DNA of 64,000 nt from Sutcliffiella horikoshii DSM 8719 (GTDB taxonomy: Bacteria > Bacillota > Bacilli > Bacillales > Bacillaceae_I), in NCBI GenBank assembly GCA_001648575.1, contig LQXN01000055.1, forward strand, positions 62,001 to 126,000, given 5' to 3'. Numbering within the stretch: position 1 is the first letter of the stretch; every line of letters begins with the position of its first letter. A program made the translations under genes and the position numbers. The notes beneath the pieces were generated by a model. It saw only the letters and a list, made by a program, of their open reading frames with translations, ran no database searches and had not been told where the DNA came from. Below are positions 27,793-63,031 of this stretch, in pieces.

Positions 27793-28072
27793 CAAAAAAC
27801 CCCTCATCCCAATAAAGGGACGAGAGGTTTGAATATACTTAACCTACCGCGGTACCACCCAGATTACTGTCATGGATACACCACGACAATCACTCGAATC
27901 CTTAACGCGGATGATACGGCGAAATATTACTGCCTTCTAATATGAAGGGTTCACACTTGCTACTCCAAGGCGAGTTCATGTACGATCGTTTGTTGACTTC
28001 CACCACCCGTCAACTCTCTATGCTCGTTTCGTCCACTACTGATCCTTTTCAACGTATAAGTTTTAGTTGTTA
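27793..28072 (-). promoter_or_regulatory. T-box leader of leuS
   Basis: An uncharged-tRNA sensing leader on the minus strand. The T-box core GGGTGGTACCGCGG is at 27847-27860. The intrinsic terminator (stem arms 27798-27810 and 27817-27830, then T6) follows it, and the T-box side can instead pair to form the antiterminator. A plausible specifier is CTC (leucine) at 27972-27974 inside GAACTCGCC of stem I. The combination with the leuS reading frame downstream makes the assignment secure; the exact specifier is inferred. Confidence 0.93.
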
Positions 28073-60791: not shown

Positions 60792-60821
60792 TTGCAACAT
60801 TAAAATGGAATATTATATAAT
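60792..60821 (+). promoter_or_regulatory. sigma-A promoter of the ABC-F leader
   Basis: TTGCAA (60792-60797), 18 bp, TATAAT (60816-60821); transcription start near 60828, leaving a leader of about 320 bases before the ABC-F gene. Confidence 0.72.
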
Positions 60822-60856
60822 AAATCTATCTTACTTGTTCGGAAGGAGGGTAAAAG

Positions 60857-60988
60857 ATGTTACTATCTGTTAATGCTCGCACACAATACATGGCATACTT
60901 GCATATTTGTCGTGCAATTTTTCATGATTCAGCTATCAACGGGACACGTATGTCCATTTTTAAACAGCTGAATAGGAAAGACAGATAG
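60857..60988 (+). CDS. leader peptide upstream of the ABC-F gene, 43 aa
   Basis: A 43-codon frame (begins MLLSVNARTQYMAYLHICRA) with a near-perfect GGAGG 7 bases before the ATG. No hydrophobic or domain features. Its position between a promoter and an intrinsic terminator in front of an ABC-F gene suggests a regulatory peptide whose translation senses ribosome inhibition. The bases around its ribosome site and start can pair with 60994-61004 beyond its stop. Confidence 0.7.
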   Translation: MLLSVNARTQYMAYLHICRAIFHDSAINGTRMSIFKQLNRKDR

Positions 60989-60993
60989 TAAGA

Positions 60994-61114
60994 ATCTTTT
61001 ACCCAACAGCACACCATTTGTACAAGTGTACTCACTTTGCGTTGTTTACACTTGTACTTGTGCCTAGATAAAAAACCATGGGAAAGAAGGCTTCTTCTTA
61101 CTCATGGTTTTTTT
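60994..61114 (+). promoter_or_regulatory. attenuator (stem-loops and terminator) of the ABC-F gene
   Basis: Three elements: ATCTTTTACCC (60994-61004), complementary over 11 bases to the leader peptide ribosome site/start (60848-60858); a long stem GTACAAGTGTA (61020-61030) with TACACTTGTAC (61047-61057), extended by GCACA/TTGTGC; and an intrinsic terminator (arms 61070-61080 and 61103-61112, AAAAAACCATG/CATGGTTTTT, then T7). The ABC-F ribosome site follows, so termination would block the gene. Confidence 0.78.
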
Positions 61115-61147
61115 GTGCGTTTAAATTCTGAAGGAGTGAACTAAACA

Positions 61148-63031
61148 ATGATGATCTGTACATTAAATAATATAAGCAAAAGCTTTGCAGGCACGATGAT
61201 TTTTGAGAATGTTTCTATGGAAATACAGGCAAACGACCGCATTGGACTTGTTGGAAGAAACGGAAGTGGCAAGACGACACTCTTTCAACTAATCAGTGGG
61301 ATGGAAGCCCCTGATAAGGGAGCTATTCATATTAAAAAAGGTGCTAAAATCGGCTACCTTGCTCAAATCCCCTCCTATCCTGTAGGAACAAAAGGAGAAG
61401 ATGTCTTGCTTTTAGCTTTCAAGGAAACTGTGGAACTGCAAAAAAAGCTTCGGACATTAGAAAACCAAATGGCTGAGGTTGCTGAAGATAACCAATTAAA
61501 CAAGATTATGCAGGAATACGGTGTATTGCAAGAACGTTTCGGTTTTATGGGAGGTTACGAAATGGATGCCTCCATTCAGCGAATTGCAAATGGCCTGAAG
61601 ATAACACACTTGCTCCCTCAGCCATTCTCAAGCTTAAGTGGCGGAGAACAAACAAAGATATGCTTAGGGTTTATCCTATTACAAAACCCTGATGTTTTAT
61701 TGCTAGATGAACCGACCAACCATCTTGATATCTTTTCGGTAGAGTGGCTCGAGCAATATCTTAAAGATTATGACGGGACAGTTGTTGCCATCTCTCATGA
61801 CCGCTACTTCCTTGATGAAGTAGCAACTAAAATAATTGATTTAGAGGACGGCGAGATTCACACTTACCACACCAATTACAGTGGTTTCCTTAAGGAAAAA
61901 GAAGAACGTCTGCTGTTGGAGTTCTCAGCCTATCAGGAACAACAGAAAAAAATCAAAAAAATGAAAGAGGCCATCAAAAGGCTGAAGGAATGGGCGAACC
62001 AGAGCAATCCGCCTAACGCTGCCATGCACCGACGTGCGAAAAGCATGGAAAAAGCATTAAATAGAATGGAAAAGTTAAAACGTCCTATTCTTGAAAGAAA
62101 GGCAATGGGCCTTCAATTTGATGCCACAGATCGAAGCGGAAAAGATGCAGTCATAATGGAGAAGGTCAGTAAATCTTTTGGTGCGAAACCTCTTTTCCAA
62201 GAGATTGATCTTGCGGTTTATTTTAGAGAACGGGCTGCCATTGTTGGACAGAATGGTACGGGTAAGTCTACTCTTTTAAAGCTATTACTTGGAGAACTAG
62301 ATGCGGATAGTGGGTTGATGAAACTTGGCAGCAATGCAAAAGTCGGTTATCTTTCTCAGCACATCAAGGCCAGTAACCCAAACCAAACATTAATAGAGGC
62401 TTTCCGTGAGAATATTTCCATTACTTTAGAACAAGCAAGACATGTATTAGCAAAATTCTTATTCTATGGACCTGCTGTATTTAAGAAGGTGGAAAATTTA
62501 AGCGGCGGTGAAAAAATGCGCCTTCGCCTGGCACAGCTCATGCACCAAGACATCAATCTTTTGATATTAGATGAGCCGACAAACCACCTGGACATAGACT
62601 CCCGCGAAGTGCTGGAAGAAGCATTGGAGGAGTTCGACGGTACCATCCTTGCAGTCTCCCATGATCGATTCTTCTTAAATAAGTATTTTGAGAAAACATG
62701 CTGGTTAGAAGACGGAAAACTCGTTACCTATGAAGGGAACTATCAGTATGCGCGGGAGAAGCGGGAGGAATTGGAGAGGGAAAAGGTTGTGAGCCTTCCC
62801 CAAGTAACTAAGGTTGACAAAAAGATAAGAGACACAGTTCCTGCCGTAAATGATAAAAGCTACGAAAAGCTTGAAATGGAATTAGAAGAGTTGGAAACAA
62901 AGATTGCTGAATTGGAAAATCGGATGGTGAATGAAGAGGATTTGCTTGAGTTGCAAAGGCTGCAGGATGTTCTCACCGATTTAGAAACAAAAAGAGATTC
63001 TTTATATAGCAAATTAGAAGAGATTATTTAA
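61148..63031 (+). CDS. ABC-F family ATPase (ribosome-associated)
   Basis: A 627-residue soluble protein with two ABC domains and no membrane segment. First Walker A GRNGSGKTT (36-44), signature LSGGEQTK (163-170), Walker B LLLDEPTNHLD; second GQNGTGKST, LSGGEKMR and LILDEPTNHLD. The linker at about 245-320 (KKMKEAIKRLKEWANQ...KSMEKALNRMEKLKRP) is the helical arm that reaches into the ribosome in ABC-F proteins. A C-terminal coiled coil follows (about 580-625). Whether it confers antibiotic protection or is a translation factor cannot be told from sequence; the attenuated leader favours inducible protection. Confidence 0.9.
   Translation: MMICTLNNISKSFAGTMIFENVSMEIQANDRIGLVGRNGSGKTTLFQLISGMEAPDKGAIHIKKGAKIGYLAQIPSYPVGTKGEDVLLLAFKETVELQKKLRTLENQMAEVAEDNQLNKIMQEYGVLQERFGFMGGYEMDASIQRIANGLKITHLLPQPFSSLSGGEQTKICLGFILLQNPDVLLLDEPTNHLDIFSVEWLEQYLKDYDGTVVAISHDRYFLDEVATKIIDLEDGEIHTYHTNYSGFLKEKEERLLLEFSAYQEQQKKIKKMKEAIKRLKEWANQSNPPNAAMHRRAKSMEKALNRMEKLKRPILERKAMGLQFDATDRSGKDAVIMEKVSKSFGAKPLFQEIDLAVYFRERAAIVGQNGTGKSTLLKLLLGELDADSGLMKLGSNAKVGYLSQHIKASNPNQTLIEAFRENISITLEQARHVLAKFLFYGPAVFKKVENLSGGEKMRLRLAQLMHQDINLLILDEPTNHLDIDSREVLEEALEEFDGTILAVSHDRFFLNKYFEKTCWLEDGKLVTYEGNYQYAREKREELEREKVVSLPQVTKVDKKIRDTVPAVNDKSYEKLEMELEELETKIAELENRMVNEEDLLELQRLQDVLTDLETKRDSLYSKLEEII

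Follow-up and report, generated by a model that had tools for sequence, protein, structure and literature searches.

How does the long leader upstream of an ABC-F gene in Sutcliffiella horikoshii DSM 8719 control that gene, and is its control a local peculiarity or the property of a family of regulatory RNAs? The locus lies near the 3' end of the 64,000-nucleotide stretch of contig LQXN01000055.1 that was analyzed as a whole (the window). A preliminary description of this DNA had proposed that a leader peptide and an attenuator govern the ABC-F gene by way of a sigma-A promoter, a 43-codon frame with a ribosome site, an 11-base complement linking the start of this frame to bases just behind it, an 11-bp hairpin and an intrinsic terminator. 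The parts of the locus, in window coordinates, were as follows.

60792..60821, + strand: sigma-A-like promoter, TTGCAA-18 nt-TATAAT (10/12 consensus matches)
60844..60850, + strand: Shine-Dalgarno sequence AGGAGGG of the leader ORF, with its 3' part inside helix P1a (from sequence)
60848..60871, + strand: element 1, the 5' strand of P1 (P1a, 60848-60858; P1b, 60860-60871; from fold and covariation)
60857..60988, + strand: leader ORF of 43 codons (open frame retained in relatives)
60879..60915, + strand: hairpin P2 of the cloverleaf (fold, covariation)
60920..60979, + strand: hairpin P3 of the cloverleaf, which encloses P3a (fold, covariation)
60942..60955, + strand: P3a, site of the GUNUGYC motif, the best conserved of the family, with a U run behind it in most members (alignment)
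60980..61004, + strand: element 2, the 3' strand of P1 and candidate partner of the terminator 5' arm (folds, complementarity tests)
61020..61057, + strand: 11-bp hairpin of S. horikoshii (61020-61030 with 61047-61057; from sequence, not genus-wide)
61073..61114, + strand: intrinsic terminator (elements 3 and 4 and a T run; stem 61073-61110, -18.8 kcal/mol)
61078..61091, + strand: element 3, the terminator 5' arm, complementary to element 2 (duplex energy, -8.4 kcal/mol)
61131..61136, + strand: Shine-Dalgarno sequence of the ABC-F gene (from sequence)
61148..63031, + strand: ABC-F gene, 627 aa, ribosomal protection-like ABC-F family (478.5 bits on NF000355, cut-off 380)

The individual parts largely agreed with the preliminary description. 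The promoter was present where expected, and it is weak evidence when taken alone since four promoter-like sites of equal quality were seen in the region (both strands) against 2.3 expected. The 43-codon frame and its ribosome site were confirmed, 60848-60858 and 60994-61004 proved to be exact reverse complements of each other, and the terminator stem, with its T run reaching to 61114, does precede the ABC-F ribosome site. A simple terminator scan missed this stem and instead flagged the hairpin within the ORF at 60942-60955 together with its T run. The 11-bp hairpin is likewise found in S. horikoshii, but leaders of the same genus differ in that stretch, and it was therefore dropped as a feature of the family.

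The encoded protein carries two ATPase domains (ABC_tran in two stretches) and falls in the NCBI ribosomal protection-like ABC-F family. Among the best 25 of 194 rows, the models for Vga, Lsa, Msr, OptrA, Sal and CplR all scored far under their cut-offs. The best matches among solved structures included Uup, EttA and two ExpZ (VmlR-type) chains, whose scores were close to one another.

Folding of the 320-nt leader gave -114.8 kcal/mol (z = -9.4), which none of 100 shuffles equalled. The long-range pairing of the start region is real, and the 11-base complement turned out to be only half of it. In the minimum free energy fold, helix P1 comprises 23 pairs in all: 60848-60858 with 60994-61004, and 60860-60871 (codons 2-5) with 60980-60991 (the last codons and the stop region). 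The ribosome site, start and first codons of the leader are thereby paired with its last codons and post-stop bases, and P1 closes a three-way cloverleaf with P2 and P3 as its arms, P3a being the inner hairpin of the latter.

We fetched the 30 best-matching ABC-F ortholog loci from 61 genomes, with the S. horikoshii locus included. A leader ORF was present in all 30 (28 by script; L012 and L018 were added by hand), every leader folded better than its shuffles (z from -3.3 to -9.8), and a cloverleaf with an ORF stood upstream of the orthologous gene in each of these best-matching loci. Among 15 leaders from outside the genus, double-sided changes were found in 30 pairs compared to 20.3 +/- 2.6 in shuffled data, a value reached in 0/500 shuffles, and 74.6% of cells were paired compared to 41-49% for slid structures. 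Fitting 76 leaders to a covariance model, a procedure biased towards the structure, gave 764 double-change cells versus 293 in shuffles. RNAalifold on plain MAFFT alignments returned almost no consensus structure, owing to misalignment of the spacer and the 3' strand, a problem that was solved by trimming, single-sequence folds and the covariance model. The preliminary description had staked its reading on the frame and hairpins being kept in relatives; the frame and the cloverleaf were conserved, the cloverleaf pairs covaried, and the reading was not refuted.

The covariance model, built from 15 leaders with the genus of the window left out, recovered the S. horikoshii leader at E = 6.5e-24 and matched 113 of 299 genomes of the class. 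An ABC-F ortholog (E up to 1e-130) was present in 133 of the class genomes, 105 of which also had a model match; 28 had the ortholog without a match, eight had a match without an ortholog at this threshold, and 158 had neither. Downstream of the element in those eight genomes we found an ABC-F fragment or homolog in five (G137, G207, G258, G292 and, by reading, G055) and a Cfr gene in G216, with G175 and G247 left out of the reading. A sample of the whole phylum gave matches in 5/299 genomes, three of them within the class; the two outside it were G470, which has the ABC-F gene, and G610, which looks like a chance match.

We then considered whether conservation acts on the leader peptide or on the RNA. 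The leader ORF lies behind a Shine-Dalgarno sequence and is mostly 35-50 codons long. It was open for at least 25 codons in 38 of 42 leaders, compared to 7/42 and 12/42 for the other frames; two leaders (L096, L105) were not placed, and for four (L018, L028, L050, L039) the count began at an incorrect upstream ATG, which makes them misses among the 42. On this purely comparative evidence the ORF qualifies as a putatively translated upstream ORF. The preliminary description had also called the peptide distinctive, which was not borne out. Variable columns within the genus were distributed over codon positions 1, 2 and 3 as 21/14/20, with no excess at the third position. Six positions of the P3a motif (G105 T106 T108 G109 C111 C112) were invariant in 30/30 aligned leaders, and the GUNUGYC hairpin was read in one frame in 31 of 36 leaders and in two other frames in the remaining five. 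Three frames end before P3a altogether (L062 after 26 codons, L080 after 25 and L096 after about 11), as expected if only the start of the leader matters. It is the open frame that is retained and not the amino acids: the ORF seems to be important as a place for a ribosome to occupy, with the conserved information carried by the RNA. The leader would thus be an example of a translated frame seemingly conserved for RNA switching and not for its peptide.

These data bear on a macrolide-type attenuator, in which a peptide-specific stall in mid-frame, for example at CRAIFH, would be the trigger and the peptide sequence would be the sensor. Such a sensor would account for the nearly unchanged peptide within the genus and for a motif like CRAIFH...NGxRxPxF that recurs in several other families. 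It is at odds with the codon-position counts, with the great differences among the peptides of distant members, with the reading of the conserved hairpin in more than one frame, and with folds in which masking mid-frame codons kept P1 closed in 6/7 leaders (the exception was L108). We consider this alternative unlikely, and peptide conservation as a sensor was set aside on the basis of the differing reading frames, the column counts and the codon-mask scan.

The GUNUGYC hairpin (60942-60960) is conserved beyond the needs of base pairing and has a U run behind it in most members, but an A run in Listeria. We considered P2 or P3a as intragenic terminators; given the A run in Listeria, a role for P3a in pausing is possible. 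It could also be imagined that P3a binds a factor or ligand while the ORF merely keeps the RNA free of other structures. GUNUGYC does vary less than any other part of the family, irrespective of the frame in which it is read. Such an arrangement would leave unexplained a frame that is kept open behind a ribosome site and a start codon that lies inside the switching helix, and we regard it as extremely improbable.

A terminator-like hairpin with a U run was predicted upstream of the gene in 98 of 101 leaders; none was found in the other three, namely L112 and two staphylococcal plasmids. In assembling this collection L073 and L091 were skipped, and the best-scoring terminator was taken where two were present. 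Together with the conservation and the folds, these terminators support the original proposal of a leader ORF combined with a switching structure and a terminator before the ABC-F gene.

Pairing between element 2 and the terminator 5' arm (element 3), here termed 2:3 pairing, was assessed in 41 leaders under 70% identity, thinned from the 98 with a terminator; in L039 the end of element 2 was placed manually. Along the leader, complementarity to this arm showed one strong peak, at the end of element 2, with a mean percentile of 0.316 against the terminators of other species (n=41) and of 0.314 against dinucleotide shuffles (z = -4.12; n=41, 28 overlapping 25-nt windows). The other 27 windows ranged from z = -3.3, in a window overlapping the peak, to +2.1, and the lowest value away from the peak was -2.3. 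In the two Cfr leaders the 2:3 duplex extends over 11 bp with one internal mismatch (-13.2 and -14.5 kcal/mol). It was modest in S. horikoshii (-8.4 kcal/mol versus -18.8 kcal/mol for the terminator) and slight in L027 (-3.4) and L095 (-5.6), and L083 gained none when the start was masked.

Masking the start in folds of the nascent RNA increased 2:3 pairing in 10 of 11 leaders, from 0.13 to 7.5 expected pairs in S. horikoshii. When a ribosome-sized mask was moved along the frame, placing codon 1 in the P site raised 2:3 pairing in 7/7 leaders, and in S. horikoshii codons 1 and 4 were the only scanned positions to do so. There were exceptions to this restriction: L108 freed element 2 from many positions, L100 did so up to codon 7, and L023 responded also at codon 43. 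In the S. horikoshii folds, the earlier suggestion that a ribosome on the frame reshapes the leader held for codons 1 to about 4, where element 2 is predicted to be freed, and not for mid-frame positions, where nothing changed. Once the terminator was complete it prevailed even with the start masked (15.4 expected terminator pairs versus 0.02 antiterminator pairs in S. horikoshii), and it dominated the equilibrium folds in 11 of 11 leaders. Antitermination would therefore have to be kinetic or assisted.

From these data we propose, with a probability of roughly 70%, that the element is a ribosome-operated transcription attenuator that is opened by a ribosome parked on codons 1 to about 4. By default the leader would close as the cloverleaf supported by fold and covariation, with P1 joining element 1 (the Shine-Dalgarno spacer, the AUG and codons 2-5) to element 2 (the last codons and the post-stop bases). 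With element 2 occupied, the terminator would form as the polymerase arrives there, and transcription would stop before the ABC-F gene. If a drug held a ribosome at codons 1 to about 4, element 1 would be covered and P1 could not close; element 2, left free, would pair with the emerging terminator 5' arm, a step for which the complementarity is statistical, and read-through would follow. A ribosome further along the frame is predicted by folding to leave P1 closed, and one at the stop codon is predicted to cover element 2 in S. horikoshii. Ordinary translation should consequently be an OFF state, since later ribosomes either leave P1 closed or cover element 2 in the S. horikoshii folds. Drugs that arrest initiation are the expected inducers, because release of element 2 is predicted only for a ribosome within codons 1 to about 4. 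Lincosamides, pleuromutilins and streptogramin A arrest initiation or the formation of the first bonds, and macrolides need a nascent chain. Lincosamides, pleuromutilins and streptogramin A, rather than macrolides, would be the expected inducers under this model. The excerpt of the vmlR study that was available agrees with these modes of drug action (PMC9226507).

A different form of control would be mainly translational attenuation, with P1 and the downstream hairpins gating the ABC-F ribosome site and the terminator being secondary. The three leaders in which no terminator was found would suit such control. In both staphylococcal members (L040, L041), which have the ABC-F ortholog and a leader that looks translational, element 3 closely resembles element 1 in sequence and has two alternative partners, element 2 and the ABC-F ribosome site. 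This suggests that these leaders are a translational version of the same switch. When the start was masked in the staphylococcal fold, the ABC-F ribosome site was freed from element 3 and then paired with the U run, so that this variant is only suggestive. For the family as a whole, the terminator hairpins upstream of the gene in nearly all leaders speak against translational control as the main mode, and we hold it to be highly improbable. Transcription attenuation by a ribosome at the leader start thus remains our preferred reading.

Several known systems resemble the proposed attenuator. In the msrD leader, arrest is one of elongation and specific to macrolides, whereas the S. horikoshii folds favor arrest at the start codons. 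The msrD leader is reportedly a case of leader-peptide-mediated regulation of an ABC-F gene (PMC10314930). According to the part of the report consulted, the vmlR leader of Bacillus subtilis consists of an anti-antiterminator containing a short ORF, an antiterminator and a terminator, and is triggered by initiation arrest (PMC9226507). The cplR leader of Clostridioides difficile, in the portion of its description covered here, combines a leader ORF, a sequestering hairpin and a terminator under dual control (PMC10201436). The vmlR, cplR and cloverleaf leaders share a logic in which a short ORF lies within a structure that initiation arrest opens, as is here proposed for the last of these. The three-codon ORF of vmlR sits in one hairpin in the account available, whereas the cloverleaf leader has an ORF of some tens of codons closed on its own start; the covered text on cplR describes an MR(I/M) mini-ORF and no cloverleaf (PMC10201436), in contrast to the S. 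horikoshii leader. The cloverleaf leader thus differs from vmlR and cplR in its longer ORF, its conserved sequence motif and its use by both ABC-F and Cfr genes.

The genes downstream of the element were read for 70 of the 119 covariance-model matches, the S. horikoshii locus included. BLAST identified the same ABC-F directly downstream in 60 of the 70. An ABC-F start was found downstream by reading in three more (L061, L109, L111), which are also in the list from the ortholog search, and in L073 a contig end cuts the gene, which reads as a piece of an ABC-F. Two loci, L096 and L103, have a shortened element (model matches spanning 123 and 122 nt) before a second, distant ABC-F with 37% identity. 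In L088 and L091 the cloverleaf leader precedes a 265-aa class I methyltransferase; that of L088 matches general methyltransferase domains in Pfam.

A Cfr-type gene follows the cloverleaf leader in L100 and L108, the protein of L108 scoring 638.6 bits on the Cfr model (cut-off 550). Cfr genes over the cut-off occurred in 16 of 299 genomes. Examined from the side of the gene, the element was present at 3 of 20 Cfr-type loci (16 over and 4 under the cut-off), all three over the cut-off: L117, which is the L108 gene, L124, which is the L100 gene again, and L126. L113 and L114, with model matches at E 0.93 and 0.38, were counted as being without the element, and a further 10 loci, which scored about 270 bits on the Cfr model and were taken as RlmN, all lacked it. 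Another type of leader, without the cloverleaf, lies upstream of five Cfr-type genes (L127, L128, L129, L130, L131). In it, the 3' side of a GCGAAAACAT stem continues into ACATRCCGG, which complements the 5' arm of a GGCACCGGTATGTCC terminator, and its 1:2 / 2:3 / 3:4 logic is similar to that of the cloverleaf leaders.

That the same regulatory RNA precedes some Cfr methylase genes suggests a common sensing of peptidyl-transferase inhibitors. A broader proposal, which we put forward tentatively and with the odds leaning against it, is that one ancient, frame-independent RNA module, consisting of a translated cloverleaf with a near-invariant GUNUGYC hairpin, serves as a portable sensor of initiation-arrested ribosomes. 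It would stand before several genes of ribosome defence that are unrelated to one another (two ABC-F types, Cfr rRNA methylases and perhaps a new methyltransferase), rliI of Listeria would be one copy of it, and the hairpin would act beyond base pairing, for example by timing RNA polymerase.

Scanning named genomes with a DNA pattern gave at least 120 loci. Among the 120 listed, an ABC-F lay within the first four downstream ORFs in 110, in nine the motif was near the end of the locus and was followed by no ORF of 80 aa, and one (L235) was without an ABC-F. The genera among the listed matches included Sutcliffiella, Neobacillus, Cytobacillus, Oceanobacillus, Exiguobacterium, Thermoactinomyces and Listeria. 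Two contigs titled Pseudomonas sp. and Chryseobacterium sp. (L216, L230) have a Bacillus-type leader and ABC-F, and are perhaps mislabelled assemblies. An uncharacterised ABC-F family in Bacillus relatives, Listeria, Exiguobacterium and staphylococcal plasmids is hereby tied to control that is likely drug-responsive.

At Rfam gathering scores no family was found for the S. horikoshii leader; elsewhere in the window a T-box leader exceeded its gathering score (27813-28061, - strand). The only Rfam family to match the S. horikoshii leader convincingly, below threshold, was Listeria rliI (RF01487), at 24.5 bits and E 1.6e-4 to 2.1e-4 and thus short of the gathering score of 45. A blind search with RF01487 gave 10 matches in 10 of 61 genomes, eight of them directly upstream of the ABC-F ortholog and two elsewhere (G034, G036). 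The gathering score was exceeded in none of the 61 genomes searched, and at E 0.01 there was no match in the genome of the window or its 15 congeners. In the other direction, our model R1 found the Listeria locus at E 2.1e-7. In L. monocytogenes, a full-length RF01487 match (282.6 bits) ends 65 nt upstream of the ABC-F ortholog, with an ADP-ribose-binding gene and guaB next in line. From its place this ortholog is probably lmo2760. The RF01487 match holds a 36-codon frame with a ribosome site, and alignment and locus comparison showed the cloverleaf structure and the genomic place to be common to RF01487 and the S. horikoshii leader. By these sequence comparisons the S. horikoshii leader is best described as a relative of rliI and not as a thresholded member, and rliI and the cloverleaf leader appear to be elements of one kind.

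Rfam and the literature, in the parts covered, treat rliI as a small RNA, whereas we read a leader ORF in it. It could be argued that the terminated leader is itself the functional product, a trans-acting small RNA whose link to the ABC-F is secondary. RliI is described in the excerpts consulted as a small RNA reported to bind the lmo1035-lmo1036 mRNA (PMC8079631), and a 2024 paper, in the part available, treats it as a trans-acting RNA reported to bind Rli51 (PMC11394854). The linkage to the ABC-F (105 of 133 ortholog genomes matched, compared to eight matched without an ortholog) and the retention of an open frame with a ribosome site point the other way, as does Term-seq evidence, in the same excerpt, for a putative conditional terminator of lmo2760 (PMC8079631). 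A function primarily in trans is, in our view, very unlikely. In the portions of the rliI literature covered, with the primary papers outside that scope, we found no mention of a translated frame. Read as a copy of the ribosome-operated attenuator, rliI, so far studied as a small RNA, gains a testable interpretation as a translated attenuator leader. At the Listeria locus L039, a hypothetical protein is annotated opposite part of rliI (2512-2820, - strand), possibly spuriously.
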